Below are positions 2,622 to 38,208 of a DNA stretch of 64,000 nucleotides, piece after piece; position 1 is the first letter of the stretch, and each line of letters starts with the position of its first letter. The stretch comes from Chryseobacterium caseinilyticum (GTDB lineage: Bacteria > Bacteroidota > Bacteroidia > Flavobacteriales > Weeksellaceae): assembly GCF_014837145.1 (NCBI RefSeq), contig NZ_JACYFS010000004.1:1-64000 (forward strand). The letters are read 5' to 3'. A program made the position numbers and the translations under genes. The notes below the pieces were generated by a model. That model had not been told where the DNA came from. It saw only the letters and a list, made by a program, of their open reading frames with translations, and made no database searches.

Positions 2622-2640
2622 TTTTATTTTTTTATACCGA

Positions 2641-2672
2641 CAAATTTAATTTAAAATTGGTGAATGGTCAAA
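2641..2672 (-). promoter_or_regulatory. gcvH promoter
   Basis: On the minus strand: TTTG, 20 nt, TAAATTTG, ending about 20 nt before the gcvH ATG. It matches the Bacteroidetes -33/-7 consensus in both boxes and the spacing. Confidence 0.75.
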
Positions 2673-2907
2673 AGAAAATTTAATTTTTGTTGGGTTGGTA
2701 GTTCGGGATGCGAGTTACGAGATGCGATTTACGGGATTTGTGTTTTGGATTTAAGGTTAAGGTTATGGAAGATAAAGATTTATACTAAGATTTGATTTAA
2801 TGCAAAGCCAGACAATGATATTATATTTTAGTTGGTTTCAATATAAACAAAGCCATAAACTTTGAAAGGAAATATAAAGTGAATAAATGTACAAGATTTT
2901 CAAAAAA

Positions 2908-2942
2908 AAATCCCTTTCAGTTTTCTGAAAGGGATTTTTTTG
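2908..2942 (-). terminator. Rho-independent terminator of sprA
   Basis: A 13-bp perfect stem (AAATCCCTTTCAG / CTGAAAGGGATTT) with a TTTT loop, flanked by A/T runs. It lies 10 nt beyond the sprA stop. The symmetric runs mean it could act in both directions. Confidence 0.88.
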
Positions 2943-2952
2943 AAAATTATTT

Positions 2953-5900
2953 TTAGAAACCTCCTGCGTCTCCGAATGTGAAGGTCGCTCTAAGCCCTGC
3001 TCTTACGGTTGACAGCGGGAAGGCTGTGGATATTTTATATTTTGAAGTCATCTGTTCATAGAAAACTGCAAGATTTAAATTTTGTGAAACGTTGTAGTCT
3101 GCAGATAATTTAATATTCATCAAACGTTGTCCGCCTGTTACCTGAGAATCATCCAGCAAGATATTCATTATACTTGTACGGCTGTCGCGAAGGGAAATAT
3201 CTCCTCTGATATTCAGGTCTGCTCCCTTATTGTTTCTGCCTCCTCCACCGGCATTTCCTAATCTGAAGTTTCTGACAATATACCCCAGACGAACTACATA
3301 TTCGGTATTTGAATCTTCGGTAATTGTTTGATTTACCAAACCAAGCAACAACATTCTGTTTCTGTTGTACTGAATTCCAAACTGCATATTGTTTCGCATT
3401 GTCACATCTATTCCTACAAGCGGTGCAAAAGATTCTACATATCCCACCTGTGAGAATGTAAATGGATTGATGCGGTCTCCGTTAACGTCGAAACTTCCCG
3501 GATTATTAAAATAATCGATGCTCGACTGTACACCTGTTGCAGTGTAAGTTGCATTGTAGCTGTGAAGGATATCAAACTTGGTAAACTGACCGCTGATCAC
3601 CGGAATGTTTTTTAAACCAGACCATGTGATTCTCCAGTTCGGAAAAGGAAGTCCGGATTTTCTTGCGTTACCAACCTGTCTTGGAGCCTTACCTTCTACT
3701 GCTGCACGGAATGCAGGAATCAAAACATAAGCATTCGCAATACTGTATCCTGCAGCGTAACCGTTAGCTCCCGGAGCTCCGCCCAATTGCTGCGAAATTG
3801 CCTGGGCATTTTGTCTGATCGCTGCATAAATAGCTGTATTATCTTTAAATGAAGTTTTCACCAGACTTACCGAGTTGGAATAGCTGATTAAATCTGTCGC
3901 AAAGGTAAGATTCGGATTAGCATTGCCGAAGCCATCTCTATAGTTGAAACCTGTTTGCGAGAAGTTTCTGTTATAGGTTTGAATGACATTGAAATCTATT
4001 CTTAAATCATTGACCGGCATCATCTGGAGATTAGCCCGCAAATCCCGGGTCGACATCCGGACGTAAGGATCAATCATTAAATCTGAAGTACTTACCCATC
4101 CGTTTTCAATCACTGTTCTTCGGATATCTGCCTGCGAACCGAGAAGAAACCCTACTGTTGGACCACCCAAAGTCTGCCCTGTTCCGTACCAGTTTGGTGC
4201 AGAAATAAGACCCGGAAGTACAGTTCCGTTATTTTCTGAATAGGTTACATCCAACTGTTTGAATGAGGTAAGGAAAAATGCTGCTCCCTGTAATGCTGTG
4301 AGTTTATTTTTGTATTTATATTTTTTGTAAGCATATCTCTTTTTCTCCCAAGCCTGCGTATAAGCTGTATTCAGAGAATCTGTCTCCTTTTTTCTTTTTC
4401 CTAAAGTTTCAGTAATTCTCTTAAAATAACTAAACTGACTGAAGAAACGAGGAAGATCTGCTGTAGCATTTGCCTGAATCACATTTGTGTTTTGACCAAT
4501 GGAACCTAAACTTCCTTCAGGACTTGACAATAACGCTGTGGATCTTGCATTCCAGTTGTAGGTGAAACCGTAGCCAACCTCAGCATCAATAAATTCTAAA
4601 TACGGAAGATATTGGAAAGGTAATTTATAATTTAACTGAACTCTGTGATTGTACAATACCGGTCTACCCGCTCTGAAAACATTTCCGAAGATGGAAGAAT
4701 TATCCATCGTGTTGACATCCACCTGATCATTTAAAGTTCTTGTAGCCGAGTTGATTTCCAGTTTTAAAGATTTAGTGAAATTAAATCCTAAACCATACTG
4801 CCAGCCGAAGTAGAAGTTTCTGTTTTTAATGGCTGCGAAATCATTTCCAGGGTTTCCACTTAAAATCGATTCAATATTTCTGAATTCAAGCTCATTGTAA
4901 TTTCTGTCGATTTCAGTTCTGAAAGATAATCTTGTAGGAATCGGATTAAAATTAAATTCTTTTACCCATTTCAGATATTTATACGATTTTGCAGTATCAC
5001 TGATCAGTTTATTGAAAGGCTTAATCACCCAAGGTTTAAACTGATAATTATAATCTACATACCCTCGCAGATATTGTCTGTAGTTTTTCTTGGTATAAAT
5101 ATCTCTGTAATGATCGTCATTATATACAGCAGTCACAGAAATGTTTTCTACATCATAGAATTTTGGTTTTTTGTCAGGATTTACTCTTTCCTTATGCATA
5201 TTAACAACACCTAAACTTCTCTGCTGAGTGTAAGTACGTGCTACTTTTTTAAGCTCTTCTCTATTGGCAGCCTTGCTGAATTCTACATCGGTATCTAAAG
5301 GATTGTACTTCGGATCTTCGATGGTTTGTGAGTAAGAATAGTTGACAGGAATTTTGATTCCGGTTTTTTCAGGTAGGAATTTATCTGCGTTGATAGCCGT
5401 ATTAATGCTGAATGCTGACTGACTTGCCTGACTTCTCTCGGCAGGTTTAGAATCAATATTTCCGAAACCTACAGATGAATAAGATGCATTGGTGTTTACG
5501 GTTGCAAAATCACCAAGGTTGAAATTTAAGCTTGCATTTCCGGCGTAACCTCCGTCGTTTTCAATTTCAGAAAGACGAATTTCGTTGACCCAGAGAACTC
5601 TTCCGTTATCAGCAATTCTCCCACCCTCATTTCTTACACCAATCATGATGGTAGTAATATTTCCTAAACTTGGACGTCCTTTTATGTAGATTCTTTTATT
5701 ATCATCCCCAAACTGGGTATCTTCTCTTCTCTCGACTATGTTACCCGGGAAATTCCGGTCTCTTCTGATTTTAGCATCTACGAAATCCTGAACATCAAAA
5801 TTCATCTCATTCTCAATTGGCCAGATTTCCATCGGTGTAGTCGCCGTTCTTTGGGTATATTTTACCGAAGATTCATATTCATAATAATTATCTGCACCAT

Positions 5901-8900
5901 CACTACCAAAACGAATAAAGAATTTCAGTTTAGGATCTAATTCTGAACTTGTTGGAGTGTCAAGATTTTGTGCATGTACAAAAAGTCTCAGTTTTTTGTA
6001 TCTTCTCATATCCAGCGTAGTATTTTTGAAAACACCTCTAGATTCATTACCCATATTTCTTACTTTCAGATAAAGAGAAGATTCATTCTGTCTTTGTGCA
6101 CCTGCATTTCCGCTCAAAACCTGTCTGTCGATTCCAGGAGGCAAAACGTAAGGTGGCTGGTTCAATGCATTTTCTTCAATATTTACACTTCCAACTTCGA
6201 AATTATCGTTTAATGTTGGAGACCCTGTTGTACCTTCGGTAGGTGAGTCAACTGTTGAGCTTGCAATTTGATTAGGATATTTTCTCCAGTCTGATCTTAC
6301 CAAATCCATGGTTCCGAATCTTAACGTAGAAACATTATCAAAACCAGTTAATAACATTCTTGCGAAACGTACATTATTTAAGATAGACGGGTCTTTATCA
6401 CCACCTGCAAGCGGATCATTGTATTTGTTAACCGGAATTCTGAAAAGGAACCATTTCACATCGTCGGTCTGACCGTTTTGAAAAGTAGCCTGAACAGTTT
6501 TTACATCAACAATATTGTTCTGTCCTAAAATTAAACTTGACTGATCAAGATTAACAACATATTCATTATAGTTTTCACTTTGATCTAAATTGTAATCTCT
6601 GTTGATATCTTCGGCGTCCGGAGTCTGTGAAGCTACTTCAAGAGAATTGCTCACTGAATTTCCTTCAGGACCTCTGAAATATTTGTAACGCTGAACCAAT
6701 GATGATGCTAAATTTCCTGTAAATCTTGTAGAAAGATAAAATACGAAATCATCAACTGCGGGGTCAGCTAAGTTGGTAACGGGATTCACAAATGTATTAC
6801 CGAAACGTGCCGCTTCCTGATCTGAACTCAAACCGTCATAACCTAAATCCTGCGCAGTTCTGTCTGTACCTTCTGTAGAGAAAGCATATAAAATCGGAGG
6901 TTGTTTTGGCTGAATACCCCAGTTTGAATTGGTTGTGGTAGAAGGAGCAGAAGGTACCGGAAGACCATTTTCGTACTGCATCAAACCATCCTTCAGAATA
7001 TCTTCTGAAACATTTCCTAATTGAAGCAAAAGTTTCGGTGCACCTCCCGGCTGACTTAAAGGTCTGTTATCGGCATACGGATCCATCATCCAGAATTCCA
7101 CGTATTCAATATTGGAATTGATGAAGTTGGAAACACTGATCGGACGCATAATACCCGCCCATCGTTGCTGCGTGGTTTCAGTTGCTGGATTTACGTTGTA
7201 AGGTCCTTTTTCGTTTGGATAGTAAGAAACATCGAAAGTATTGGTAAATGTCTGTTCACCTGCCACAAAATCTCTGTTGTTAAAAATCTCTGAAAACTGA
7301 ACCCTTCTTGAAGCGTGATTGGAAACAGACTCCGCTGTAATTCCTTCCGGAGGTCTTCCTCCTACACCCCAGAATCTCGGGTCAATATTGTACCATGAAA
7401 GCAAACCTCTTCCGTAACCATTCGTAATATCATTATTTGCTCCGGCACCGTTGAAAAGTGGGTTACCCTGATTCTTTTCCGGTTTTGAAGCTAAGCTCCA
7501 TGCCGTTGGTTCTTTTAAAGAAATCTTTGAAGTCGTCTGTTCAAAATCGTCAATGTACGACTGATCGTTTGTTCCTTTATTGATTCCCGGAATAAGATAG
7601 GCACCTTCCATTCTGAAATTCAGATTTGAAGGAGCTTCGGTATTAATTCCAGGGATTTTATCTGTAAGTCTTGTGAGGAAAGGCAATTGGTTGTTGTACA
7701 ACATATTGATACCCGCCATCGTGTTATTCACCGCTTCCTGACCGTAATTTACCTTTTGAGTTAAAGGTGATTCGGAATAATTGACAACCGTTCCGCCAAA
7801 AATGAAGTTTTCGCTGACTCTTCTTTCTAAATTTAGACCTAAAAATCTTTTACGCTGTGTATTAAAAGTAAGCTGATTTTCAAGTGAAATATTGATAGCC
7901 TGACCGGATTGTTTTACATTTTCGTTGATGATCGTCACAGATCCCAACATATAATCTACGGTATAATCTACACCTTCTGTTAGCTGAACACCGTTAGCTG
8001 AAACTTTTACTGAACCTTGAGGCACGTTCACCGCTCCAAGTGAAATCCCCTGACCTTGAGCTCCTTTATATCTACCTTCAAGCGTATATCTCTGAGGTAC
8101 ATGTTGGGCATCCTGCTTTTGCCTTGCATACAAATCAGTTTGAACATATTGAGGATCATTTGTACCCAGAACCTGTGCCATATAACTTCCAAAAGGCTGA
8201 GCTTTTGTGAAAATCAGTTTCCCTAATTCTGGTCTCACGGTAATTCCACTTACGAAATCGAAAATTCCATCGCCCAAAGTACCGTTGTTTGACTGTAAGT
8301 CACCATTCAGATTGAGTCTGTCCCAGTTTAATAATTTCAATAAATTAATATCTGCAACCGAAGTACCCGGTAAATAATTTACCTTACCTCCTGTTTTTGG
8401 ATCACGATAGAGCACATTCAGGATAAATCCGTCCTGATCAACCTGTCCCGCATCCAAAGCGTAGATGTTTTTCATCATCAGCTGCCACATTGGAGACGTA
8501 ACTTTAACCTGAGAATTTGATTTTAGCAATTTGGTAATCAAAACAGGACTTTCTTCAGAAAACTCACCCACTTTATAAACCTGGTTGGTACCATTTACGG
8601 TGTAGGAATAGGAGACCGTTAAAAGTTGTTGTTCATTAAGTCTTTGATTTAATGAAATATATCCTAACTGTGGATGAAACGTATATTCGTTACTGTTAAG
8701 TCTTCGTGCTTTTTTATTAAATAAAAATTCTTCTCCGTTTGTATAGGGCGTTGCGCTTCCGGGAAAAGTCTGTCCCAAAAGAAGCTCACCATAATTAATT
8801 GCAGGATCTCTGGGAGCACCCATTACATTGCTTACTGCTTGGTAAAGACCATTTTGAGTATTATCCGGAGTACCGGAAGCACCCTGCCCCAAATCTCTGA

Positions 8901-27722: not shown

Positions 27723-27753
27723 AGTCTGTTCCGAAAGGGGCAGGCTTTTTTTT
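27723..27753 (+). terminator. Rho-independent terminator
   Basis: AGTCTGTTCC, GAAA tetraloop, GGGGCAGGCT: ten pairs including G-T wobbles, followed by eight T. It closes the plus-strand pectin cluster. Confidence 0.9.
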
Positions 27754-27825
27754 GAATAATAATCTGAAAATTATCAGCTGTGATTTTCTTTTAATTTATC
27801 CTGACAGGTTTCCAACCACATTCGT

Positions 27826-28179
27826 TTATTCGCCAAAAACTTCTTCAGGAAAAGTGCTTACATAATATTCTAAATAATTGAAGTCAAGATTAAAAAAATT
27901 TTGCCCCACTGAGGTATTTCTTTTTATTTCATCAATGATGTCAGCTTTTGAATACATTTCACCATTAAGCGTGGATATCATATTGTCTTCAACAGATTTT
28001 TTATATCTTTCAATCACAAGTTTCAGCCGTAACTGCTTATCCAGTAAAGAAAGAGGATATATTTTCTTATCACCCGAAGCTACTTCGTCATATAATACAA
28101 AACTGTCTGATTGCGGATTGTAGCTCAGTGGCTTGCTTTTAGCCTCATCAATAATTGCCGGAAGGTTAATTTTTTTCAT
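27826..28179 (-). CDS. Small protein homologous to the N-terminal domain of the caspase-like neighbour
   Basis: A 117-residue protein with no signal peptide. By eye it aligns over its full length with residues 1-113 of the upstream protein (28238-29350): INLPAI with LTLPQF, and IIDEIKRNTSVGQ with IISHIENQTSLGK, followed by a similar Tyr-containing helix. It is therefore a stand-alone copy of that domain. I do not recognise the family. It may bind the effector's N-domain as an inhibitor, partner or adaptor; this is inference. It lies 58 bp downstream on the same strand, with a hairpin terminator between, so its expression may depend on read-through or on a separate promoter I could not find. 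Confidence 0.7.
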   Translation of the reverse strand: MKKINLPAIIDEAKSKPLSYNPQSDSFVLYDEVASGDKKIYPLSLLDKQLRLKLVIERYKKSVEDNMISTLNGEMYSKADIIDEIKRNTSVGQNFFNLDFNYLEYYVSTFPEEVFGE

Positions 28180-28193
28180 AATGGTAAAAATAA

Positions 28194-28231
28194 AAAATCA
28201 GGAATTATTTCTGTGAAAAATTCCTGATTTT
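28194..28231 (-). terminator. Terminator hairpin between caspase-like gene and small paralogue
   Basis: AAAATCAGGAATT pairs perfectly with AATTCCTGATTTT (13 bp). On the minus strand it is followed by a T-rich run. It starts 7 nt beyond the caspase-like stop, so it can reduce expression of the downstream small gene. Confidence 0.8.
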
Positions 28232-28237
28232 GTGTGA

Positions 28238-29350
28238 TTACACAGATCTGTTGGCAAAATCCTTCAGACTGATATTGTAGAACACATACGGCAGAACGGT
28301 ATCTGTTTTGCTGCCCCACGCCGCTCCACTTACGGGAGAACGCAGCAGATCACGATCCTGCATAAGCAGTGCCGCTGTACTCGTTCCCGGAACCGTCGCC
28401 ATCCCCACATTAAACTGGTTGACTGTATCAGCAATCGCCTGCTGTACGGTTCTGCCAATTGCCATACTGATATCAAACTGCGAATCTGCCTTCCAAAAAA
28501 GTGTCGAATTTGCCCAGGTAAAGGTGAAATTTTCAGAATATCCAGTATACGACTTTGCACCTTTTGCGATTGTATTTGGTCCCAGATCACGACCTGTACG
28601 GCAACTTAGAAAATGAAGAGAGCAATCCTGCACTTCCAGCGGATCATAAGCTCCGATTCTGAGAACAGATGAATTTCCGTGACCTGTATACAAATCATAG
28701 TTACCATGACCGATCCCGCCAATGTAAACTACTCTGGATTCTTTAGCTCTTGCGGCAAAATTAGTTCTGTTATCATTCACTCCATCTAATTTAATGACCT
28801 CAAAACCTCTGTTTGCAAATACAGGGTGAACATTATTAATTCTGTACAAAGCTGCCTGATTGGTCACACTGTCTGTTGTATTTTCACAAAAAAGAACTTT
28901 ATTTCTGAACGAAATCCATTTTGCTTTTGGAATAATTTTCCACTCAGCCGGAACTGCAGGCAAAGCAATTTCTTTAGGCATCACAAATCTATCCGAAAGC
29001 AAGGCCGTTTTTCCCAGCATTTGATTGAGAAGAAATTCAGAATATTTAATCTCGGCATCTGCAATTTGTTTTCCCAGCGAGGTTTGATTTTCAATGTGAG
29101 AGATGATCTCTCTCTGGTTATAAATTCCTTCGCTTATCACTCCGATTTTGAGGTCGGATTCCATTTTTATTCTTGCAATCGCTAATTTCGCTTTGTTTTG
29201 AAATGATGTAAGATCAAGACCAAACTTAGGAGGTGTTTTTCCGGCGATTATTTCTTTGGCATACATCAGTGTGCCATCGCCTCTTACTCCTATTGGTTTC
29301 TCGGCTGCAAATTGCGGTAAGGTCAATTTGCCTAATTTAACTGTACTCAT
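28238..29350 (-). CDS. Caspase/gingipain-like cysteine peptidase with N-terminal partner domain
   Basis: A 370-residue protein without a signal peptide. Residues 1-115 form a helical domain shared with the next gene. Residues about 140-340 resemble clan CD peptidases: a strand ending in VVYIGGIGHG, then LYTGHGNSS (His224) and SLHFLSCRTGRD (Cys250), the spacing and context of the His-Cys dyad in gingipain/caspase folds (gingipain has YTGHGS and a strand ending in Ala-Cys). Cytoplasmic location is inferred from the absence of a signal. It stands between a pectin cluster and the GntR regulator with no evident metabolic link. It may be a regulated effector protease of a conflict or signalling system, but no such system is identifiable here. 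Activity is unproven. Confidence 0.7.
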   Translation of the reverse strand: MSTVKLGKLTLPQFAAEKPIGVRGDGTLMYAKEIIAGKTPPKFGLDLTSFQNKAKLAIARIKMESDLKIGVISEGIYNQREIISHIENQTSLGKQIADAEIKYSEFLLNQMLGKTALLSDRFVMPKEIALPAVPAEWKIIPKAKWISFRNKVLFCENTTDSVTNQAALYRINNVHPVFANRGFEVIKLDGVNDNRTNFAARAKESRVVYIGGIGHGNYDLYTGHGNSSVLRIGAYDPLEVQDCSLHFLSCRTGRDLGPNTIAKGAKSYTGYSENFTFTWANSTLFWKADSQFDISMAIGRTVQQAIADTVNQFNVGMATVPGTSTAALLMQDRDLLRSPVSGAAWGSKTDTVLPYVFYNISLKDFANRSV

Positions 29351-30319
29351 GGTTTAAAAATTTTAGGTTCGTATTTTTGTTTATTAGTTTTTTTAAAGGT
29401 TTTTCAAAACAGAAATTTATTTTATCTGTTACAGAGTAAAAACTTTTACATTGTTGAGGATCAGAGAATTTCACACAGCGGGACACTGCAGATTTCCATA
29501 ACAATTCGTTACGGGTCTGGCAGGAAAATTTCACACACGAATCCAACAATGCCTGACATTTTTTTGTCTTTCAACAATCAATTTGCCAACGGTGTGAAAT
29601 TAAGTTGGGTTTTCCACTACAATTATACTTTGTATTCAAATGTTATCGACATCATCAATTAAAGGAAATCAAGATTGAAACAAACCAAAATATGTTGTGA
29701 ATTACTTTAAATTTAAAATAGAAAACTCAAAAATATCAACAGAAATGTTGAGAATTGAAACACGAATTAATCGGAATAGAATTTTGTAATTTTTCTCATA
29801 TTATCATTGTTATTAGTTAGATTAAAGTTAGATAAAAAACACAGACAAAAAAAACTTTTCAGCAATGATTTGATAATAATTTTAATCAAAATCTCAAAAT
29901 TACTGTATAGAAAGCATATTGGAAGGGGGTTTATTGAACCTGTTTAATCTTGATCCATCATATAAAACTTGTATAATTTAGAAAAGCTGACTGTTCAAAT
30001 AGACAAATTTTATTAAACCATTAGAGTTTATGACTTGGGGAATCTCACAGCCTGAGATTTTCACGATGTCAGAGTTCAGAAGATCCGAAGCTTTTACAGT
30101 TTTAAAAAAACTGAGCGTTGAAACGGGAGTTTCATAAAAATTTAAGTAATTCATTTATAATCTGTAAAGAATTGATAACTAACAGTTTTAGACTATCAAC
30201 ATTATAAAAAACATTCATGAATCTGTTACTTCAAATTTTTGTATCTTGTTTTCAGCTATTAATCGCTTTTGATTTTAGCTGTTTTTTAACTGAATTGCAT
30301 TTCCTATCTGTAAAAAATC
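29351..30319. other. Long spacer between divergent caspase-like and GntR genes
   Basis: 969 bp, AT-rich, with no credible ORF. It holds AATTTCACAC at 29468 and 29528 and an inverted copy (GTGTGAAAT) at 29592-29600, all on the caspase-gene side. A 70-codon minus-strand frame at 29337-29549 is built largely from these motifs and overlaps the caspase start, so it was not accepted as a gene. No consensus promoter is obvious for either flanking gene. Confidence 0.5.
29467..29600. repeat. Repeated TTTCACAC motif upstream of caspase-like gene
   Basis: Two direct copies of AATTTCACAC 60 nt apart and one inverted GTGTGAAAT 64 nt further. The arrangement could be an operator set or a remnant of repeats; no regulator is known. 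Confidence 0.35.
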
Positions 30320-31366
30320 ATGGCCGAAACATTAGAAATCAACATCAATGAAAACTCCAGAGTTCCGAAATACAAACAGATTGTAGATTCTATTCTGAAC
30401 GGAATTGATGGAGGGCAAATAAAAATCGGAGAAAAAATTCCGTCAATCAATGAACTCAGCGAATCCTGCTTCCTTTCCCGGGATACCGTAGAAAAGGCTT
30501 ACAAAGAGCTTCGCAAAAGACAAATCATTGAATCTGTAAAGGGAAAAGGTTATTATATTTCCCGCATCAACAAGAACGACATCATCAATATTTTCTTTCT
30601 GATCAACAAGCCGAGTACCTATAAAATGATGATTTACAATTATTTCGTCAATGCAATCGGTACCAAAGGCAATGTGGAGATGTACATCTATCATTGCGAC
30701 GAAACGCTTTTTATCAATGCGCTGAAGAAAAATCTTGGTGGATTTGATTATTATGTCGTGATGCCTCACTTCCGTGATGAACAGTCGAAACATACGAGTT
30801 CCACACAGGAAGTTTTAGATATTATCGAACAGATTCCGAAGAACAAACTTTTACTTTTAGACAATACAAAACCTAATATTTCTGGGGATTACGGATCAAT
30901 TTTCCAGGATTTCGAGCATGATATTTATGATGCGCTGAAGGAAGGTTTAGATAAAATTAAAAAGTACGAAAAGATTATTTTGGTCTATCCTGATAAATCC
31001 ATTCATCCCTACCCTTTCCGCATTGTGCGCGGTTTTGAGCAGTTTTGCAGAGATTTTAAACTCGACTATGAAATTCTGGATGAAATTTATCCCGACATGG
31101 AACTGCAGGACAAAGATATTTTCATCACCATCCGTGAGCGTGATTTGGTGAATTTGGTGAAACAGATCCGTCAGAAAAACTTAAAACTGGGTGAAGACAT
31201 CGGAATTATTTCTTACAACGAAACCCCTTTGAAAGAATTGCTTGGAATTACTGTAATTACTACTGATTTTAAGGCGATGGGAGAATCTGCCGCATATATG
31301 ATTTTAAAAAACAAGAAAGAGCAGGTGAATAATGTTTTTAAATTTATTCAGAGAGAATCGCTATAG
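30320..31366 (+). CDS. GntR-family regulator with LacI/periplasmic-binding-like sensor domain
   Basis: A 348-residue protein. Residues 12-82 form a GntR winged helix (IPSINELSESCFLSRDTVEK, then KGKGYYIS). Residues 90-345 resemble a sugar-binding periplasmic-protein fold like that of Bacillus AraR, with a ligand-domain end IGIISYNETPLKELLGITVI. Such regulators release DNA on binding a sugar. Its position beside the rhamnose/rhamnogalacturonan genes makes it the best candidate regulator of that locus, with L-rhamnose or an early intermediate as effector; this is inference. A 20-bp motif shared upstream of the aldolase gene and susC is a candidate binding site. Confidence 0.88.
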   Translation: MAETLEININENSRVPKYKQIVDSILNGIDGGQIKIGEKIPSINELSESCFLSRDTVEKAYKELRKRQIIESVKGKGYYISRINKNDIINIFFLINKPSTYKMMIYNYFVNAIGTKGNVEMYIYHCDETLFINALKKNLGGFDYYVVMPHFRDEQSKHTSSTQEVLDIIEQIPKNKLLLLDNTKPNISGDYGSIFQDFEHDIYDALKEGLDKIKKYEKIILVYPDKSIHPYPFRIVRGFEQFCRDFKLDYEILDEIYPDMELQDKDIFITIRERDLVNLVKQIRQKNLKLGEDIGIISYNETPLKELLGITVITTDFKAMGESAAYMILKNKKEQVNNVFKFIQRESL

Positions 31367-31623
31367 ATGATTGATGATTGATAAAATTATAAATGAATGT
31401 CGATTGTTAAGCATAACGCTAAGATCAGCAGTCATTTTGTCATTCTGTAGGAATTTCAACACATCAAAATAAAGCAGTTCAGGGTCCTACTGAATGACAA
31501 ACAAACCGTTCAAAACTAAGTTATTACTACTAACGGAAATTCATTATATTATACTTTAAAAGAATAAGATTCTAATAATTATCGGAACAAATTAAAATCT
31601 TTAAAAAATATATCTAATTATTT

Positions 31624-32067
31624 ATGATTAAAAAAATAATTTTCGCCCTGAGTTTTTTAGTGGCAATAACTGTTTTCGGACAGAAAAAAAATGATATCCA
31701 ATCTGTAACAGATGCAGCAGAAAAACTGAGATCAGCAATGATCAGCGGTGAAAAATCAGCACTGGAATCCTTAATTGTTCCAGAACTGACTTACGGACAT
31801 TCGGGAGGTCATATTGATGATGCCAAAGAATTTGTTGAAAAACTGGTCAGCAAAAAATCAGATTTTCTAACGATTGATATTACGAACCAAAATATACAAA
31901 TCGTCGGAAATACAGCGATTGTCCGTCATCATTTTTATGCAACGACTGCTGATTTGGGAAAGGAGCCTGGTGATGTAACTTTGGATATTTTATTGGTCTG
32001 GACAAAGGTGAAAAACGACTGGAAATTACTGGCGAGACAGGCAGTGAAGTCGGAGAAGAAAAAGTAA
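31624..32067 (+). CDS. NTF2-like (SnoaL/DUF4440-type) secreted protein
   Basis: A 147-residue protein with a signal peptide (IIFALSFLVAITVFGQ) and an NTF2-like cone fold: the helix DAAEKLRSAMISGEKSALES and the strand pattern IQIVGNTAIVRHHFYAT, then DILLVWTKVKNDWKLLARQA. This family binds small ligands or acts as a simple isomerase/hydrolase; no activity can be assigned. It follows the regulator by 257 bp on the same strand. A link to sugar use is possible but not shown. Confidence 0.78.
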   Translation: MIKKIIFALSFLVAITVFGQKKNDIQSVTDAAEKLRSAMISGEKSALESLIVPELTYGHSGGHIDDAKEFVEKLVSKKSDFLTIDITNQNIQIVGNTAIVRHHFYATTADLGKEPGDVTLDILLVWTKVKNDWKLLARQAVKSEKKK

Positions 32068-32143
32068 TAAATTGTCAATTTGATAATAAATAATTTTTTG
32101 CAGAAGGGACTTAGATTTTTTAGTAAAAAATCGCATTAAAAAC

Positions 32144-32176
32144 TTTAAAATTATTTAATCTATTTAAGTATATTTG
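32144..32176 (+). promoter_or_regulatory. Promoter of the proteasome-like gene
   Basis: TTTA, 21 nt, TATATTTG, ending 35 nt before the ATG at 32212. The -7 box is a perfect consensus match; -33 has one mismatch. Confidence 0.5.
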
Positions 32177-32211
32177 AAGTTAGAAAAATTTCAAAACCTA
32201 AGATTAATTTA

Positions 32212-33033
32212 ATGACATTAATAATTTCATGGGTTGGTGTAGATGATAAAAAAACTGGTAAAGAAATATCATCTCTTTATATAGCATCTGACAGTAGATA
32301 TACAGCAGGCATCAAAACTAAATTTGATTATGGAATTAAGGTTTTTGGGGCTTCAAAATATCCTGAAATTTTCGGATTTTGTGGGGACGTATTATTTCCC
32401 TCAACGATATTAGGCCAAATTATTCCTCAAATTGACAACGGAATTTTATTAAAAGAATCCGATGACTGCAACTCTAAAAATTCAAAAATTTTTACTTATA
32501 TAGAAACATCATTGAAAGAATACCCTGATACTTTTTTAGGTAATACTTTTACTATTATACATGGTACAAGATTTGGAAAAGATTTTAAACTTTTTAAATT
32601 TTTTTACAATAAAAAATATGGGATTGAAGTAAGTGAAATTCCATTAGGCAAAAGGTCCACAAAAGTTCTAAGTGATGGATCTGGTGCAAAAGAATTTGAT
32701 AACAAATGGTCGAAAATTTGGAACAATCCCAAACATAATGATTATAGAACTAGCCGTGCGGTTTATCACTGCCTAAACCAAACACTTAAAGAAATAAAAG
32801 ATCCTCATACAGGAGGTTTACCACAAATAATTGGACTGTATAGAAATAATAATTCAAGAATTTTTGGTATAGTAGAAAATGAAAGTAAGTATATTTATGG
32901 AAAACCTAGTAGTGAGGATATAAATTCCACAAGTATTGAATGGAGAAACGAAAATTTTGAAAGAGTCGATCCAAAAACTTTAAAAATATTAGAAGGCTCA
33001 CAAAGACAGCCTTTACAAGACGCAACTCCCTGA
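32212..33033 (+). CDS. Proteasome/HslV-like N-terminal-nucleophile hydrolase (putative)
   Basis: A 273-residue protein starting Met-Thr-Leu-Ile-Ile. Several proteasome-beta landmarks align by eye: Thr2 would become the N-terminal nucleophile after Met removal; SLYIASDSRYTAG matches the ADxR-TAG region (Asp27, Arg29, as Asp17/Arg19); YGIKVF places Lys43 at the Lys33 position; and GFCGD matches the conserved SAGD turn. Extra length lies in an insertion after the first strand and in the C-terminal ~80 residues. No HslU, ATPase or second subunit is nearby. The gene is more AT-rich than its neighbours and has its own promoter. A peptidase or other Ntn activity is inferred; the family is not one I can name. 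Confidence 0.55.
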   Translation: MTLIISWVGVDDKKTGKEISSLYIASDSRYTAGIKTKFDYGIKVFGASKYPEIFGFCGDVLFPSTILGQIIPQIDNGILLKESDDCNSKNSKIFTYIETSLKEYPDTFLGNTFTIIHGTRFGKDFKLFKFFYNKKYGIEVSEIPLGKRSTKVLSDGSGAKEFDNKWSKIWNNPKHNDYRTSRAVYHCLNQTLKEIKDPHTGGLPQIIGLYRNNNSRIFGIVENESKYIYGKPSSEDINSTSIEWRNENFERVDPKTLKILEGSQRQPLQDATP

Positions 33034-33082
33034 CTCTCCACAAATTTAATTTATCACCATTTATTTGGGGAGGTTGAGGTGA

Positions 33083-33107
33083 CTGATGGTAGTAATACCA
33101 TCATCAG
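33083..33107 (+). other. Stem-loop downstream of the proteasome-like gene
   Basis: GATGGTA, loop GTAA, TACCATC, extended by CTGAT/ATCAG with a 3-nt bulge. It has no T-run, so it is not a classical terminator. It directly precedes the tRNA-like sequence. Confidence 0.45.
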
Positions 33108-33114
33108 GGTATTT

Positions 33115-33191
33115 AAAAACCAATTGTAGTGTAATTAGATAGCACGTCCATGTCTAAATGGAAAGTCTTGGTGCGAATCCAAGCGGTTTTT
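33115..33191 (+). tRNA. Degenerate tRNA-like sequence (Arg-TCT-like)
   Basis: A cloverleaf can be drawn: D-arm GTG/CAC around TAATTAGATAG, a 5-bp anticodon stem TCCAT/ATGGA with an irregular 6-nt loop GTCTAA, and a perfect T-arm CTTGG-TGCGAAT-CCAAG. The ends AAAAACC and GGTTTTT pair over 7 bp, but with extra spacing to the D-arm. The D-arm and the TCTAA loop resemble tRNA-Arg(UCU). The abnormal anticodon loop and the TGC in place of TTC in the T-loop suggest a pseudo-tRNA or a phage/mobile-type tRNA, not a housekeeping gene. Confidence 0.4.
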
Positions 33192-33314
33192 AATTCAAAA
33201 CAATTTTTGTAGTTTTGTAAAATTTATTAGTATTATGTACTCTTAAAATTTCAGAACTCTACTTCGCAATAAGCACCAGTTTTTTTGTATTGATTACAGT
33301 CATATTATTATGCA

Positions 33315-33530
33315 TCACTTCACCCTAAACTTTTGCAACTCGTCCGGCGTATCACAGCAAACCTGCTCTATCACCTGTCTGAACTGCATTTTCAACATTT
33401 CAATAATGTGATCACTACCTTTCCTAAAGCTCCGACGGCATACATACACGTTCTACCCATAAAGGTAAATTCTGCGCCGCAACACAAAGCTCACGTAACT
33501 TCTTCTCTTATGCCTCTGTTTATAATTATA
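33315..33530 (-). pseudogene. Decayed 3' fragment of an lldD-type oxidase gene
   Basis: This stretch matches the last ~220 bases of the intact gene at 35557-36708: a very similar C-terminus (QVCCDTP, QKFRVK) and identical tracts such as TTCTACCCATAAAGGTAAAT. A 4-nt deletion near 33423 (CTTTGTCACCT in the intact copy, CTTTCCT here) breaks the frame, and similarity fades towards 33530. There is no 5' part. It lies just beyond the 3' end of the GH140 gene, so GH140 is bracketed by two copies of the lldD tail in the same orientation. It is probably left by recombination or gene insertion. Confidence 0.85.
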
Positions 33531-33567
33531 ATACCGGTTCAGACATCCTCAAAAAAAATGCTGAAGT

Positions 33568-34971
33568 TCACAGATAATTCTTACTCGCATCCACCGCCAC
33601 AAAAACAAAATCTTTAGCCTCTCCGTTTTCTTTCTCAGGAGTAATCTGCAAAATTTTATTTCCATCAGACTCGCCAATGTATTTGTACCCGCCGGTTCTT
33701 GGATTGTACCACCAGCATTTTTTCTTCTTACCACTGATTTTCGACAAATCGATCTGCATATTTCTTCCGGTGTAATTATAGACGAGCAGGTAATCTTCTC
33801 CGCGGGTAGCAATAAGTCTTTCGTAGCGTTCACCCACTTCACCTTTAATAATACTTTGATCTGGAATTCTTTCAAAATATGGAAATTTTAGCATTAGATT
33901 TTTTAAATATTGCATCTGCGTAAAACCTGCATCATTAAGACAGTCGAACCACGCACGCTGAGCTCCGTATGCAGGCGACAGACCTGGTCTGTAAAACTGC
34001 ATAATAGAATTATGGCCGTACGTATGCCCAAAAGAACCCGCAAACACAGACCAGTATGCATATCTTCTCACGTCATGATCTTTCCATCGTGGTTCGCTGG
34101 CATCGTGAAGTCCCTGTGGAATGTCTTCGTAGGAAGGTTCGCCATCGATGATGGGTTTTAAAGGTTTCATCGAAAGTGCTTTTTCGGCATATCTCCAGTT
34201 ATCTTCTTCGGTATCGGCAATTTTTTTCGCTTCACCGTCACCTTTCCGCTGTCCATATCTTCTGTGACCGCTCTGGAACATATTGAAATCTAACCAACCG
34301 GCACTGTTAAACCAATCTGCCGAACTCGTAGCACCAAAAGGATGATAGGTCATTAAATGGTTTTTGTCAACGGACTTTATGCTGTTGGCCAAAGCTTGCC
34401 AGACTTCTGTTTTGATGTCGCCTCTCATATCGCCTCCGATAAACCAAATGATATTGGGCGAATCTTTGTACCGCTCTGCTAAAAACTGTCCGTACTTTTT
34501 TGCCTGATCTACATCCATTTTTCCTGCTTTTACCAAGCCGCCCCAGATGCAGACCATCCCGATGTAAATTCCGTTTTTCTCGGCTGTTTTTACAATGTAA
34601 TCCATGTGATCCCAATATCCATACACGCCTTTTTGGTTGATGTTGCTGAAATCAAAACCGTCAGTCATTGAAGGCTGTCCGTATTTATTGAACGCAGGAA
34701 CGGCATTGATGGTCTGTACCTGAACGACATTGAATCCGTTTTTTGCACATTGACTCAGATAAAAATCTACTTCATCCCGATCAGTACGTTCCGGCAGAAG
34801 CCATCCGGTTTCTCCTAACCAGAAAAATGGTTTTCCGTTTTTGTGCTGCAAATATTTGTTGTTAGAGCTGACCTGCAGCGCTCCATTTGACCATGGCATT
34901 TCCTGTTTTTTGTTTTGAGAAAAGGTAAAAACTGAATAAATAATGAGGAGCAATATGAGGAATTTTTTCAT
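33568..34971 (-). CDS. GH140-type (DUF4038) apiosidase-like glycoside hydrolase
   Basis: A 467-residue secreted protein: signal peptide FLILLLIIYSVFTFSQ, a (beta/alpha)8 barrel of the DUF4038 type (FFWLGETGWLL; WFIGGDMRGD with Asp181; PIIDGEPSYED with Glu278) and a C-terminal beta-sandwich of the putative collagen-binding type (GGYKYIGESDGN). The two acids correspond to the pair described for GH140 endo-apiosidase, which cuts apiose-linked side chains of rhamnogalacturonan II; related DUF4038 enzymes have other substrates. It lies alone on the minus strand, flanked by an lldD remnant and a repeat-rich spacer, which suggests it was inserted. No other RG-II-specific enzyme is recognisable nearby. 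Confidence 0.82.
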   Translation of the reverse strand: MKKFLILLLIIYSVFTFSQNKKQEMPWSNGALQVSSNNKYLQHKNGKPFFWLGETGWLLPERTDRDEVDFYLSQCAKNGFNVVQVQTINAVPAFNKYGQPSMTDGFDFSNINQKGVYGYWDHMDYIVKTAEKNGIYIGMVCIWGGLVKAGKMDVDQAKKYGQFLAERYKDSPNIIWFIGGDMRGDIKTEVWQALANSIKSVDKNHLMTYHPFGATSSADWFNSAGWLDFNMFQSGHRRYGQRKGDGEAKKIADTEEDNWRYAEKALSMKPLKPIIDGEPSYEDIPQGLHDASEPRWKDHDVRRYAYWSVFAGSFGHTYGHNSIMQFYRPGLSPAYGAQRAWFDCLNDAGFTQMQYLKNLMLKFPYFERIPDQSIIKGEVGERYERLIATRGEDYLLVYNYTGRNMQIDLSKISGKKKKCWWYNPRTGGYKYIGESDGNKILQITPEKENGEAKDFVFVAVDASKNYL

Positions 34972-35556
34972 GACAGTAATTTGGTTTTTAAATGATTTCG
35001 TTTTTGATTATCTTTTGTTTTCACGATGTGATTTACTACTAAGAACACTAAGCATTTCACTATAAACACAAAGCTTGTGAACCTTGTGAAAAATCTTTGT
35101 ATTCCTTGTGGTAAAAAATACATATGCAATAATTTTTCAAACATTACACAAATTGTTTTTAACGCAAAGATTATTTTAATGTTGCATATTTTTTAGAAAG
35201 CTAAGGCAAATAAATTTGATTCGCAAAGCTTGAAAACATTCTTTGCATATTGATTAAAATAGTATTATAAAACAAAAAATACAATTCACCGAACTGTATT
35301 TTTTTTGCTATGATTATTCAAAATATTTTATTTCAACGCAAAGTGCACAAAGAATTTTTAAATACTATCTGCTTTTAAGTTACACAAAGCCGTTTCACTT
35401 ATACAAGCTCACTAAGCTTTTCATTCATTACAAAATAAGAACTTTTTTTAATATGAAAATTGGTGGTTCGCATTCTGTAAAGCTGTATTTAGATAAAAGA
35501 TCTTTCAATGAAAACTTAAAAACTTCCAGCTTCCATCACTCAGCTTCCCACTCAAA
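34972..35556. other. Repeat-rich spacer between GH140 and lldD genes
   Basis: 585 bp of AT-rich sequence containing an inverted-repeat element at 35032-35115 and further degenerate ACGCAAAG/CACAAAG motifs near 35160, 35335 and 35390. A simple ACTTCCAGCTTCC repeat near 35521 recurs at 36791. No gene is seen. Confidence 0.5.
35032..35115. repeat. Short inverted-repeat (MITE-like) element
   Basis: The 21-nt ends TTTACTACTAAGAACACTAA(G) and CTTTGTATTCCTTGTGGTAA(A) are inverted copies at 16 of 21 positions. Same class of ends as the elements at 25389 and 39820, but more decayed. Confidence 0.45.
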
Positions 35557-36708
35557 CTACTTCACCCTAAACTTCTGCAATTGCTCTGGCGTATCACAGC
35601 AAACCTGTTCCATCACCTGTCTGAACTGCATTTTTAGCATTTCAATAATATGATCGCCACCTTTGTCACCTAAAGCACCAACAGCATACATAAATGTTCT
35701 ACCCATAAAGGTAAATTCTGCACCGCAACTCAGAGCACGGGCAACATCCGGACCGGTTCTTACGCCACTGTCCATCATAATTTTAATTTGACCTTTGTAT
35801 TTTTCGCTGATCTCTTTTACTACAGCAATAGTAGATTCTCCTGCATCAAGCTGCCTTCCACCATGATTGGAAATAATCATTCCGTCAAAACCTAAACGAA
35901 CTGCTTCTGCTGCATCTTCGTCGGAAGCCACGCCTTTGATGACCAGTTTTCCTTTCCACTTATCGCGGATGGCTTTGATTCGGTCTGAATTTAATCTGCC
36001 GGAAAAAGTGGAATTCATGAACTGTCCCAGTTGTTTCACATTCATGTTTTTGTCCATGTATTTTTCCATCGTTTTAAAACTCGGAACGCCATGTTTTAAA
36101 ATTTCAAGACACCATTCAGGTCTTGCTAAGGCTTGCGAAACATTTCTGAAATTCAGTTGTGGAGGCATCGCCAAACCGTTTCTAATCTCTTTTGCCCGGT
36201 AACCGAACGTGGGAACATCCGATAAAACGCACAGAACATCATACCCAGAAGCTTCACAACGATCAAGAATATCGTCACGCAACCATTCTTCTCTTGGATG
36301 ATAGAGTTGATACCATGCTTTTCCTTCGGTTAATTCGGCAATTCTTTCGATACTGCTCGTCGTTACCGTACTTAAAATAAAAGGAATATTATGCTTAAAA
36401 GCTGCTTTTGCTAAAATTTCAGGGGCATTGGGCCACATCAATCCTTGTAAACCAACGGGAGAGATTCCGAACGGAGCAGAATATTTTACACCGAATAATT
36501 CCGTTTCCATATTGGCTTCCGTGTAATTGTTGTTCAGATATTGCGGACGAAGCAGAACATCGCGCAATTCGCTTGTATTCCTATCGCGGTTGATATTTTC
36601 GTTACAGCCGCCATCCAGATATTCGAATGCGAAACGGGGCATTTTCTTTTTTGCTTTTTCGATCAGCAATTCGAGAGAAGCGTAGTTGGTATCAAATGGA
36701 AAGGACAT
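35557..36708 (-). CDS. lldD: FMN-dependent alpha-hydroxy-acid dehydrogenase/oxidase (L-lactate type)
   Basis: A 383-residue protein of the LldD/glycolate oxidase family. It has the N-terminal FAFEYLDGGCNENINRDRN segment, the FMN and substrate residues around ISPVGLQGLMWPNAP, and the catalytic region IISNHGGRQLDAGES with the active-site His. It oxidises an L-2-hydroxy acid, most likely L-lactate to pyruvate. Here it lies downstream of the rhamnose kinase on the same strand. The rhamnose pathway ends in L-lactate, so this enzyme would complete the route. A decayed copy of its 3' end lies at 33315-33530. It may act at the inner membrane with quinones, as LldD does; specificity is inferred from context. 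Confidence 0.88.
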   Translation of the reverse strand: MSFPFDTNYASLELLIEKAKKKMPRFAFEYLDGGCNENINRDRNTSELRDVLLRPQYLNNNYTEANMETELFGVKYSAPFGISPVGLQGLMWPNAPEILAKAAFKHNIPFILSTVTTSSIERIAELTEGKAWYQLYHPREEWLRDDILDRCEASGYDVLCVLSDVPTFGYRAKEIRNGLAMPPQLNFRNVSQALARPEWCLEILKHGVPSFKTMEKYMDKNMNVKQLGQFMNSTFSGRLNSDRIKAIRDKWKGKLVIKGVASDEDAAEAVRLGFDGMIISNHGGRQLDAGESTIAVVKEISEKYKGQIKIMMDSGVRTGPDVARALSCGAEFTFMGRTFMYAVGALGDKGGDHIIEMLKMQFRQVMEQVCCDTPEQLQKFRVK

Positions 36709-36718
36709 AGTTTGTTGT

Positions 36719-36756
36719 TAGATGTTGGATGTTGGGTGTTGGGTGATGGATGTTTA
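36719..36756. repeat. Simple GATGTTGG/GGTGTTGG repeat
   Basis: Degenerate tandem GATGTTGG-type units just upstream of the lldD start. The same kind of low-complexity run occurs in other spacers of the window. No coding potential. Confidence 0.5.
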
Positions 36757-36822
36757 ATTTGATGTTAAAAACTAAATTACTGTTTTTATTACCGGCATCT
36801 GACTTCCAGCTTCCAACAAAAT

Positions 36823-38208
36823 TTATAAATTAAGAATTAAAGGCTGAAGCACTTTCATCTGATAATGCTGCTGTAAAAAAGTTTCGTCTATTTTTTTGTT
36901 TGAAATCACCATTGATGCACCCAAAGCCGATCCCAACGGAGAATGGGTAGACATCACATTGTAATGCTGGAAATGGTGCGACATTAGTTTCATAAAAACA
37001 TCGTTATCTGTGAAGCCTCCGTCGATATAAATATTTTTTATTTCTGAATTTCCGATCGCATTGGTAATCGTATGAATCTGCAAATCCATTAATTCGATCA
37101 TTAATTGATGATAGGCTTCTTCGAAAGTTTCAAATGAATTTAAATCTGTTGCGGTAATCATTTTTCTTTTTAAAATAATCCCTTCAAAACGGAAATAAAT
37201 GTTTTTGTTTTTCATCAGACGCAGGTACAGATCCTGATCAAACTGCACTTCTCTGTGAAAACCATATTCTTTTCCATAGTACGCACACAGTTTTTCAACC
37301 TGAATTTTATACTCATTTCCCATGAAAAAACGGGATGCTTTCACACGTTTTCCGTCAATTCGCATGTAGTTCAGACAGTTGTTTTCGATATCTTCATCCG
37401 TTAAACTTTCATCGTTGAATGGATTTAAAGAAATACTCCATGTTCCTGTTGAAAGCAGTAAAAATGGTTCTTTTTTACTTAAAATATAAGGCAACAGTGC
37501 GGAAGAACTGTCGTGAATTCCAACGCCGATTTTAATTTTTTTATTTCTGTAAGACGTGTTGATGCTTGCAGAGGTTGGAACAATTGGTCCCAATAATGCA
37601 TCAATTCCCTCTTCATAAACCCAGTCATGATAATCTGCTTTGTCGTAATCCCAAAGGTTGGTATGACAGCCGATTGAGGTAAATTCAGAAACGCAAATTC
37701 CGGTAAATAAATACGATAAATACTGTGGTAAATGAAGACTGTAACGGATTTTTTTGAAAACTTCCGGATGTTTGTATTTTAACCAGAATAACTGCAGTCC
37801 TGAGTTCAACATTCCGGTTTGTGGAGATGCTGTTTCGCGGGCAATTTTCAGTTTGCTGCCATGTTTTTCGTAAAATAAATCAAGAATATCCTGATCCATT
37901 GGTTTGGTGTAGTTGTACAAAGGCGTCAGAACATTTCCTTTCTGATCAAGGTGCACAAAACTCGCTCCGTACGTAGAAAAATTGATGGCTTTTACTTCAA
38001 AATTTTCATCATCGAGAATGGCATTGAAGTTATCTTTGATCCAGTTTTGCAATGCTGCCAAATCTTCTGTGGGATAACCATCTTCATCGGTGGTAAGGGG
38101 AAGTTCGGTATATTCACGCACAACTTCTTTGTAATTTTTATCAAATAAAAAAAACTTTTTGTTGGTTTTTCCAATATCAAATACGATGGTTACCTTTTTT
38201 TTGGACAT
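36823..38208 (-). CDS. rhaB: FGGY-family sugar kinase, probable L-rhamnulokinase
   Basis: A 461-residue FGGY kinase: N-terminal phosphate loop VFDIGKTNKKFFLFD, FGGY_N region FSTYGASFVHLDQKGN, sugar/ATP cleft IGVGIHDSSSALLPY with its catalytic Asp near residue 233, and C-terminal YIDGGFTDND and SPLGSALGASM. FGGY enzymes phosphorylate ketoses such as L-rhamnulose, L-fuculose or xylulose. The isomerase and rhamnulose-1-P aldolase upstream make L-rhamnulose the likely substrate. The symbol rests on context, not on sequence alone. It is separated from rhaI by 310 bp with a terminator, so it may have its own promoter. Confidence 0.82.
   Translation of the reverse strand: MSKKKVTIVFDIGKTNKKFFLFDKNYKEVVREYTELPLTTDEDGYPTEDLAALQNWIKDNFNAILDDENFEVKAINFSTYGASFVHLDQKGNVLTPLYNYTKPMDQDILDLFYEKHGSKLKIARETASPQTGMLNSGLQLFWLKYKHPEVFKKIRYSLHLPQYLSYLFTGICVSEFTSIGCHTNLWDYDKADYHDWVYEEGIDALLGPIVPTSASINTSYRNKKIKIGVGIHDSSSALLPYILSKKEPFLLLSTGTWSISLNPFNDESLTDEDIENNCLNYMRIDGKRVKASRFFMGNEYKIQVEKLCAYYGKEYGFHREVQFDQDLYLRLMKNKNIYFRFEGIILKRKMITATDLNSFETFEEAYHQLMIELMDLQIHTITNAIGNSEIKNIYIDGGFTDNDVFMKLMSHHFQHYNVMSTHSPLGSALGASMVISNKKIDETFLQQHYQMKVLQPLILNL

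Follow-up and report, generated by a model that had tools for sequence, protein, structure and literature searches.

A predicted proteasome-like hydrolase and adjoining tRNA-like RNA elements may form an undescribed antiviral or toxin-antitoxin-like module

Results

Layout of the locus

The window (the whole 64,000-nt stretch of Chryseobacterium caseinilyticum DNA analysed here) carries an open reading frame for a predicted proteasome-beta-like hydrolase, followed on the same strand by two putative structured RNAs. The features are given below, together with the evidence on which each was called.

32067..33574, no strand assigned: strain-variable segment holding the module (blastn of L167 against the window)
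32212..33033, + strand: predicted proteasome-beta-like N-terminal-threonine hydrolase (ORF, relatives, AF2 fold, Foldseek, VIA)
32215..32217, + strand: Thr2 codon (ACA), proposed N-terminal nucleophile after Met removal (alignment, VIA)
33022..33110, + strand: core RNA, read as circularly permuted tRNA-like (covariation, permuted reading)
33022-33027, + strand: core RNA, 3' part of the T-loop
33028-33032, + strand: core RNA, 3' strand of the T-stem
33033-33039, + strand: core RNA, 3' strand of the acceptor
33067-33073, + strand: core RNA, 5' strand of the acceptor
~33073-33083, + strand: core RNA, mini D-arm
33084-33103, + strand: core RNA, long anticodon-like hairpin
33105-33109, + strand: core RNA, 5' strand of the T-stem, then T
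33115..33191, + strand: conventional tRNA-like cloverleaf with atypical elbow (Rfam, R2, hand alignment)

The first 12 bases of the core RNA overlap the end of the hydrolase ORF. As we read it, the surrounding DNA is a sugar-utilisation region, with the module placed after a DUF4440 gene. No ATPase was found among the five window proteins scanned or recognised among the other ORFs of 28000-37500, and no defence gene was recognised in the window.

The hydrolase gene and its predicted fold

The product of ORF 32212-33033 (+) is 273 aa long, and its landmarks are a Met1-Thr2 start, D27-S28-R29, K43, G58-D59, GSG156-158, D197xxTGG and a C-terminal EWRNENFE. A back-translated search yielded ten relatives whose alignments run from residue 1 to 266-273, with identities of 38-71%, and comparison with L001 over 267 codons placed 65, 45 and 118 differences at codon positions 1, 2 and 3, respectively. 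The ORF is therefore taken as protein-coding, given its full-length relatives and the codon-position bias of the differences. An earlier, sequence-only reading of this DNA had described the gene as AT-rich, and indeed its 1-kb bin has the lowest GC content of the 64 in the window (28.6%, the others 31.5-44.2%). Its proposal of an unclassified accessory gene also stands: searches of Pfam, NCBIfam and PADLOC gave no convincing match for the family proteins searched, a profile search of 99 genomes of relatives found the hydrolase in the window's own genome only (1/99), and the locus is strain-variable. It had further called the gene lone, or solitary, and there it had missed the conserved structured RNA that adjoins the ORF.

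The motifs singled out in that reading are present and conserved in a 16-row alignment (A3) that reaches down to 23% identity to the window protein. Met1, Ser28 and Lys43 are invariant, and Thr2, Asp27 and Arg29 are at least 90% conserved, with Thr2 in 15 of the 16 rows; the departures are L012, which has Ser2 and Glu27, and L025, which has Gln29. G58 and G156-x-G158 are mostly kept, the latter as GSG in most rows. The fourth place of D197xx[ST]GG is C in L008, L009 and L017 and V in L007, and L013, L022 and L025 depart in other ways. By position, these last two motifs correspond to Ser129 and Asp166/Ser169 of proteasome beta subunits. The catalytic set T/S2, D/E27 and K43 is present, its equivalence to D17 and K33 being one of motif order.

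An AlphaFold2 model built with an 11-row alignment reached a mean pLDDT of 82.3 and a pTM of 0.83, the last seven residues falling below a pLDDT of 50. DSSP assigned it the element order EEEE-HH-EEEE-HH-EEEE, that is, a pair of stacked beta sheets with helices on either side, arranged in the order of proteasome beta subunits. Foldseek retrieved 604 PDB matches at E≤0.001 (best E 4.6e-8), and all 50 matches listed are proteasome entries, with modest TM-scores of ~0.35-0.53 by query length. VIA-align gave tied Z-scores for the beta subunits of Mtb (16.2; rmsd 3.7, 201 aligned) and M. jannaschii (16.1; rmsd 3.6, 195 aligned) and for Anbu 5nyg_B (16.0; rmsd 3.1, 194 aligned). In 20 of the 50 VIA matches listed, residue 2 of the model is the first aligned and meets residue 1 or 301 of the chain, the latter of which we take to be the mature Thr1; Mtb, Thermoplasma and Anbu chains are among them. 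In about ten other VIA matches listed, all to eukaryotic subunits, residue 1 meets residue 1. The Ntn, proteasome-type fold anticipated from the sequence is thus supported by the AlphaFold2 model and by the Foldseek and VIA-align matches listed, for a predicted structure.

At the level of sequence, in contrast to structure, the hhalign comparison with HslV and the PDB profile search do not establish homology: hhalign against a two-sequence HslV alignment gave a probability of 1% over 11 columns, and the sole match of the PDB profile search was a proteasome beta subunit at E 0.17. PHROG 1040 ('peptidase HslV family') was matched weakly by L018 (E 0.026) and L013 (E 0.039). Since the Pfam proteasome family PF00227 finds none of the 16 hydrolase family members (0/16), kinship with the proteasome rests on the fold and the residues. 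By its predicted fold and catalytic residues, the protein is a proteasome-like Ntn hydrolase that PF00227 does not recognise; it is not Anbu, and an HslV identity is not established. Taken alone, it is a new member, or one already clustered, of the proteasome-like family. PF00227 had no match either in the window's genome (G000) or in four other flavobacterial carriers, in a search whose control found it in 10 of 14 control genomes. The earlier generalisation that Bacteroidetes normally use HslV therefore misfits the genome from which the window comes.

Structured RNAs beside the gene

At the 3' end of the hydrolase gene lies a conserved non-coding element, GCAACTCCCTG...GAGGTG...CAGGGT, followed in flavobacterial loci by the tRNA-like. 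The window's RNA pair (33022-33191) is below every Rfam cut-off. Its tRNA-like, scoring 28.2 bits as Rfam tRNA (gathering 29), has a 7-bp acceptor, a 4-bp D-arm with AG in the D-loop, a 5-bp anticodon arm with a 6-nt loop and a T-arm loop reading TGCGAAT. We built a covariance model, R2, from eight same-strand flavobacterial tRNA-likes, with which the window copy, a training row, scores 96.1 bits. Rfam scored the tRNA-like of L017 as tRNA above cut-off (38.2 bits) and had no match at E≤1 for those of L001 and L012; ARAGORN found no tRNA in the window and called the L013 tRNA-like tRNA-Tyr(ata). For the core, no Rfam family matched at E≤1 in window positions 31000-34500, L001, L014, L018 or parts of L034 and L007. 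Nor did tmRNA appear, by Rfam in the stretches scanned or by ARAGORN in the loci scanned.

To assess the core we used a 16-row, model-fitted alignment (A9). Standard pairs fill 94.4% of its pair cells against a shuffled mean of 77.3%, double-sided changes occur in 15 of 19 pairs against 6.8 in shuffles (0/500 shuffles reach 15), and the covariation score is 0.396 against 0.145 when shuffled; sliding the pair partners lowers all of these measures. Covariation in the core is strong by these measures, although the alignment leans towards the proposed structure, because it was fitted to it. For the tRNA-like, eight loci were aligned by hand; all 168 of their stem pairs are retained, and 9 of 21 columns show double changes. 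When partners are exchanged between loci, pairing falls to 79% in the acceptor, 84% in the anticodon stem and 93% in the T-stem; the D-stem is invariant, and its pairing is unchanged by the exchange. A GCA/TGC pseudoknot considered for the core was dropped, being broken, by eye, in L158 and the 5' copies.

The reading that suits the core best is a tRNA-like RNA in circularly permuted form, with both ends falling inside the T-loop. Its helix P1, read as the T-stem, forms 79 of 80 pairs, and the T at its 3' end together with its 5' end (GCAACT in 13/16) makes a 7-nt T-loop; on the same best reading the acceptor stem corresponds to P2 and the long anticodon-like hairpin to P3, with a small D-arm at the junction. 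Four cores (L014, L018, L031 and L034) have the acceptor paired at 7 of 7 positions with A-CCA after it; the remaining 12 pair at 5-6 of 7 and lack CCA. Here the 5' strand of the acceptor was placed where it pairs best, a placement that is implausible in L009. ARAGORN called none of the 16 re-rotated cores a tRNA by default, and under relaxed settings its 18 calls for rotated and 16 for unrotated cores gave no separation. Because ARAGORN does not support the rotated cores, we infer the permuted reading from their anatomy.

Positions assigned by hand or eye place G55-C56 in the T-loop of the core and of the regular tRNA-likes alike. All 11 distinct copies of the latter have both G55-C56 and AG in the D-loop, position 54 is T in five of the 11, and the anticodon loop is 6 nt long in seven of the eight flavobacterial ones. 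The non-translating tRNA-Gly of staphylococci probably has the same T-loop G55-C56 and D-loop AG. None of the 35 tRNAs called by ARAGORN in loci other than L153 and L013 has a T-loop of the G55-C56 type.

L153, a viral contig fragment, holds at ~200-8100 a run of 37 ARAGORN tRNAs, 33 of them with a G55 (TGC-type) T-loop. Together they amount to an almost full phage tRNA set whose elbow is altered and whose D-loops, by eye, are of the AG type. The fragment was picked up by a pattern containing the T-arm sequence itself, so no frequency estimate follows from it, and no hydrolase relative was found in the 12 kb covered.

Association of the RNAs with the hydrolase gene

We counted 22 full-length loci including the window, the proteins of L001 and L002 being identical. 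Left out were L015 (N-terminus missing), L026 (spurious), L029 (a fragment at E 8e-4), H2 (near-identical to H1) and the sister-family loci L159-L161; L011, L016, L019-L021, L027, L028, L030-L035, L156, L162, L168 and L169 (L169 = L158) are repeat or wider fetches of counted loci. One or both RNA elements accompany 20 of the 22. The core lies 3' of the gene on the same strand in 13 (window, L001-L010, L157, L158), nine of which have the tRNA-like too, and 5' of the gene in four (L034, L031, L014, L018); three have only an opposite-strand tRNA-like (L013, L012, L030/L017). R1 and R2 scans found neither element in L023 and L025.

R1, a covariance model built from eight flavobacterial cores, was run over 26 sources (396 kb) made up of the window and the loci around hydrolase genes, mostly flanks. 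Its 18 matches at E≤5 comprise the eight training cores, L002 (the same as L001), eight new cores and one in-gene match, in L013 at E 2, which we took as chance since it falls inside the hydrolase gene. All eight new cores lie within ~70 nt of a hydrolase gene, at E 2e-4 to 0.21: 3' of it in L169 (the same locus as L158; 2e-4), L007 (0.001), L009 (0.04) and L008 (0.2), and upstream in L034 (0.004), L031 (0.009), L014 (0.018) and L018 (0.1). These upstream cores lie ~35-70 nt before the start codon, all but that of L014 on the opposite strand; taken one by one they score weakly (E 0.004-0.1) with R1, which is independent of them. Over the same sources, R2 gave 12 matches at E≤5, namely its training rows, L002 and three new tRNA-likes (L013, E 7e-5; L012, 0.07; L030/L017, 1.9); those of L013, L012 and L017 sit on the opposite strand, immediately past the hydrolase stop codon.

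At the scale of 16 genomes or records, R1 gave nine matches at hydrolase genes and one elsewhere (E 0.57). The window's genome has a single R1 core match, at the hydrolase gene, and the weak cores of G486, G487, G488 and G1422 were missed at this scale. R3, a model with the 5' cores among its training rows, gave eight matches at hydrolase genes in 17 genomes or records, all of them training rows, and five away from such genes (E 0.08-0.9), three of which have stems with many unpaired positions and were taken as chance. No new locus came from R3 in 279 further-sampled genomes: two of its four matches at E≤0.1 are at known hydrolase genes of the training set, L193 lies within an alpha/beta-hydrolase-like ORF and its P1 is poor, and L194, viewed as an alignment alone, is the remaining off-gene match. 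Off-gene matches were weak in all three of these scans.

Plasmid and phage DNA searches with the RNA of L001 found nothing. A DNA pattern scan of viral contigs returned at least 120 stretches, none of those listed having the matching T-stem partner by regular expression; we discarded them as chance or as lying in the phage tRNA T-arms of L153. Near the L013 tRNA-like, a promoter scan gave one site against 0.7 expected, off the expected position.

Because the side and strand of the RNA change while its link to the gene stays, it is probably a separate partner of the gene and not part of the mRNA. That the module exists as a protein plus an RNA is, on these data, very probable.

Distribution, mobility and neighbouring genes

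The ten relatives from the back-translated search come from Flavobacteriia, other Bacteroidota, a Casimicrobiaceae MAG and two Bacillota MAGs. With tblastn we found the hydrolase in five plasmid records (two Arcobacter, two Pseudomonas, one Agrobacterium), and the IMG/VR contig L018, whose context we read as Mu-like, carries it as well. No relative turned up when phage proteins were searched with the proteins of the window and of L013, or when viral-contig proteins were scanned with those of L013 and L017. Profile searches matched 2 of 395 genomes in the window's phylum (the window's and G377), 6 of 398 in the phylum of the L007 genome, one of them spurious (L026), and 2 of 398 in that of the L008 genome, the seed and a fragment at E 8e-4. 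In the family of G489, 7 of 329 genomes matched: two were known, two are new close members (L157, L158) and three belong to a sister family. The hydrolase family is rare and patchy, its 22 loci being spread over four phyla and over chromosomes, integron cassettes, plasmids and a viral contig. The 19 distinct RNA-bearing proteins form one clade in the tree, with a printed support of 0.92. The sister family (L159-L161), from genomes of the family of G489, reads MT..SW...ATDSR...GGxPQ; by eye, L159 and L161 adjoin attC-like sequences, and R1 and R2 scans found no RNA element with any of the three.

In a genome of the same genus, ~1 kb of other DNA replaces window positions 32067-33574 between flanks that are 93-95% identical. 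L007 adjoins an integron integrase (TIGR02249, 489.9 bits, cut-off 265) and an attC seen by eye, whereas L002 adjoins an integrase fragment below cut-off; L001 and L002 share a common cassette with different DNA outside. An integrase nearby and an attC after the gene, the marks of an integron cassette, were found together for L007 only, and no attC was seen by eye at the window copy. The plasmid copies of the hydrolase gene include the truncated L015. The module is rare and mobile, its mobility being drawn from the integrase near L007, the plasmids, the viral contig and the strain swap.

Beside the module, window positions 33317-33490 are 87% identical to the 3' end of a relative's FMN-dependent dehydrogenase-like gene; the window's own copy of that gene is at 35557-36708, making 33317-33490 a partial duplication. 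A second stretch of the window, 27753-30172, is also missing from the same-genus genome whose flanks are 93-95% identical. The stretch contains a 370-aa ORF (28238-29350, -) whose GHGN and SCRTG motifs recall caspase-like/C25 peptidases and which has no convincing Pfam match.

Surveying the neighbourhoods of homologues, we found defence-type genes in several loci and no constant protein partner. Among RNA-bearing loci, L168 has a ThsB-like TIR and PDC-S60 nearby, L034 an OLD-like ATPase ~1.7 kb off, L012 HEPN_Toprim, and L018 RES and a sub-cut-off HEPN; PADLOC had no match for the HEPN_Toprim of L012 or the HEPN/RES of L018. In the RNA-less L033 (4696-8887), the hydrolase comes just after SIR2 and HerA defence genes, with an ORF at 7325-8023, probably the rest of HerA, ending 40 bp before it; the RNA-less L032 has a helicase and DUF3800 nearby. 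Two of the tightest defence linkages are those of RNA-less members, which counts against the two-component reading proposed below and slightly favours a cis-acting RNA.

Discussion

We propose that the gene and its RNA form a two-component module in which a tRNA mimic controls or informs the hydrolase, perhaps in a defence or toxin-antitoxin-like setting; for this reading as a whole we estimate a probability of about 0.47. Control of the hydrolase by the RNA is, in our judgement, slightly favoured, and a defence or toxin-antitoxin-like role is a tentative suggestion that falls a little short of even odds. According to this proposal, methionine aminopeptidase would remove Met1 and free Thr2, and the RNA, once expressed, would bind the hydrolase physically, or bind its partner in the cell, and so check or direct it, either direction of control being conceivable. 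The trigger would be the cutting, displacement or outcompeting of the tRNA mimic, as might happen in a phage-infected cell whose tRNAs and tRNA-processing enzymes come under attack or are replaced. Once released, the hydrolase might act on a peptide or aminoacyl bond, its presumptive substrate, and the cell or the phage would be stopped. A more specific version, which we regard as doubtful, is an RNA-governed proteolytic immunity in which the RNA mimics phage tRNAs with an altered (G55) elbow. A tRNA-elbow code would then keep the hydrolase idle or armed, and phage tRNAs, or enzymes acting on tRNA elbows, would trigger it.

The hydrolase could instead be an ordinary stand-alone protease or peptidase with a housekeeping or stress function, and the RNA a hitch-hiker or a cis element such as a 3' UTR stabiliser, a terminator or an RNase P site. 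Such a role would suit the 13 of 22 loci in which the RNA begins, on the gene's own strand, directly at the stop codon or behind it, as well as the flavobacterial T-arm plus U-run, which is terminator-like by eye. It sits poorly with stems that covary, with the seven of 22 loci that have the RNA on the 5' side or on the other strand, and with an RNA that scans recovered beside members of this clade but neither at the sister loci L159-L161 nor at L023 or L025, and we hold it to be unlikely. It is very improbable that the element is a recombination site resembling attC or REP and works as folded single-stranded DNA. Several copies do lie in integron cassettes (L007, L001, L002), where attC folds as single-stranded DNA, but the element is separate from attC by eye in L007 and L001, and it occurs also on plasmids, on a viral contig and in the window without a visible attC. 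Moreover, a T-G (U-G) pair at one P2 position in 13 of 15 lettered rows suits RNA, and the protein is without a recombinase fold.

Another alternative retains the RNA as a working partner and gives it a different task. The tRNA-like might be an aminoacylated substrate or carrier, kept off the ribosome by its altered elbow, whose amino acid is taken or passed on by the Ntn hydrolase; the protein would then resemble the ligase connectase and be a ligase or amidase that depends on tRNA. Connectase shows that a protein of proteasome-like fold can act as a ligase (PMC8665760). In favour of this alternative are the A-CCA found after the 3' acceptor strand of 4 permuted cores out of 16 (L014, L018, L031, L034) and the elbow shared by all 11 distinct regular tRNA-likes. 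On the other side, CCA is absent after 12 of 16 cores, acceptor stems differ greatly between loci with no common identity set seen, and 6-nt anticodon loops occur in 7 of 8 flavobacterial copies. Such a substrate or carrier role thus appears quite unlikely, and we keep the two-component module with RNA control of the hydrolase as our working interpretation.

Anbu starts with Met-Thr and lacks a propeptide, as does the hydrolase described here, and the Anbu structure ties for the best match (5nyg_B, Z 16.0). The C-terminal helix H5 is an Anbu feature in a published family survey (PMC8665760). By DSSP, our model lacks H5, with no helix of at least four residues after residue 194, and the hydrolase differs from Anbu also in its RNA partner. 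No profile match to the two-sequence HslV alignment was obtained. The proteasome-like family at large comprises 20S beta, HslV, Anbu, BPH, connectase and 22 uncharacterised homologues (Fuchs et al. 2021, PMC8665760), and many proteasome-like proteins lie outside the classical complexes. For the 22, that paper reports neither a genomic context hinting at a specific function nor a co-occurring AAA+ partner. The hydrolase shares with this family the predicted fold, N-terminal Thr, Asp/Lys set and secondary-structure order, and departs from it in lacking a PF00227 match (0/16) and a recognised adjoining ATPase and in having an RNA partner.

Type III toxin-antitoxin systems, retrons and DRT are small mobile loci of one protein and one structured RNA, and AbiF is described in the same terms (PMC12373285). 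The module resembles them in being a small mobile locus with one protein and structured RNA; it is unlike them in that the protein is of the proteasome type, not a nuclease, HEPN or RT, and the RNA a tRNA mimic. Type III toxin-antitoxin systems are set further apart, since inspection by eye showed no tandem repeat, 16 of 20 loci have the RNA 3' of the gene, and the protein has a predicted proteasome fold and not that of an endoRNase toxin. Permutation is known for tmRNA and for tRNA genes. These share with the core a tRNA-like domain in permuted form; unlike in them, the core's ends, on our reading, are in the T-loop. The regular tRNA-likes, in turn, have AG and G55-C56 in place of the G18-G19 and U55-C56 of canonical tRNA, and seven of the eight flavobacterial copies have a 6-nt in place of the 7-nt anticodon loop.

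We found no pairing of a proteasome-like protein with a tRNA-like RNA in the open-licence literature, as judged from titles and abstract starts among the matches listed, and nothing corresponding to a hydrolase/tRNA-mimic pair in Rfam, PADLOC, NCBIfam or Pfam as searched. We therefore regard the module as a candidate for an as yet undescribed anti-virus or toxin-antitoxin-like system. For one clade of proteasome-like proteins, these data provide a conserved molecular partner, a tRNA-like RNA that has moved and flipped around the gene and is still with it, and this partner is a direct, testable handle on function. Regulation through it would add RNA control to the proteasome-type hydrolases and, if the module serves in defence, would link tRNA mimicry and the altered elbows of phage tRNAs with proteolysis.
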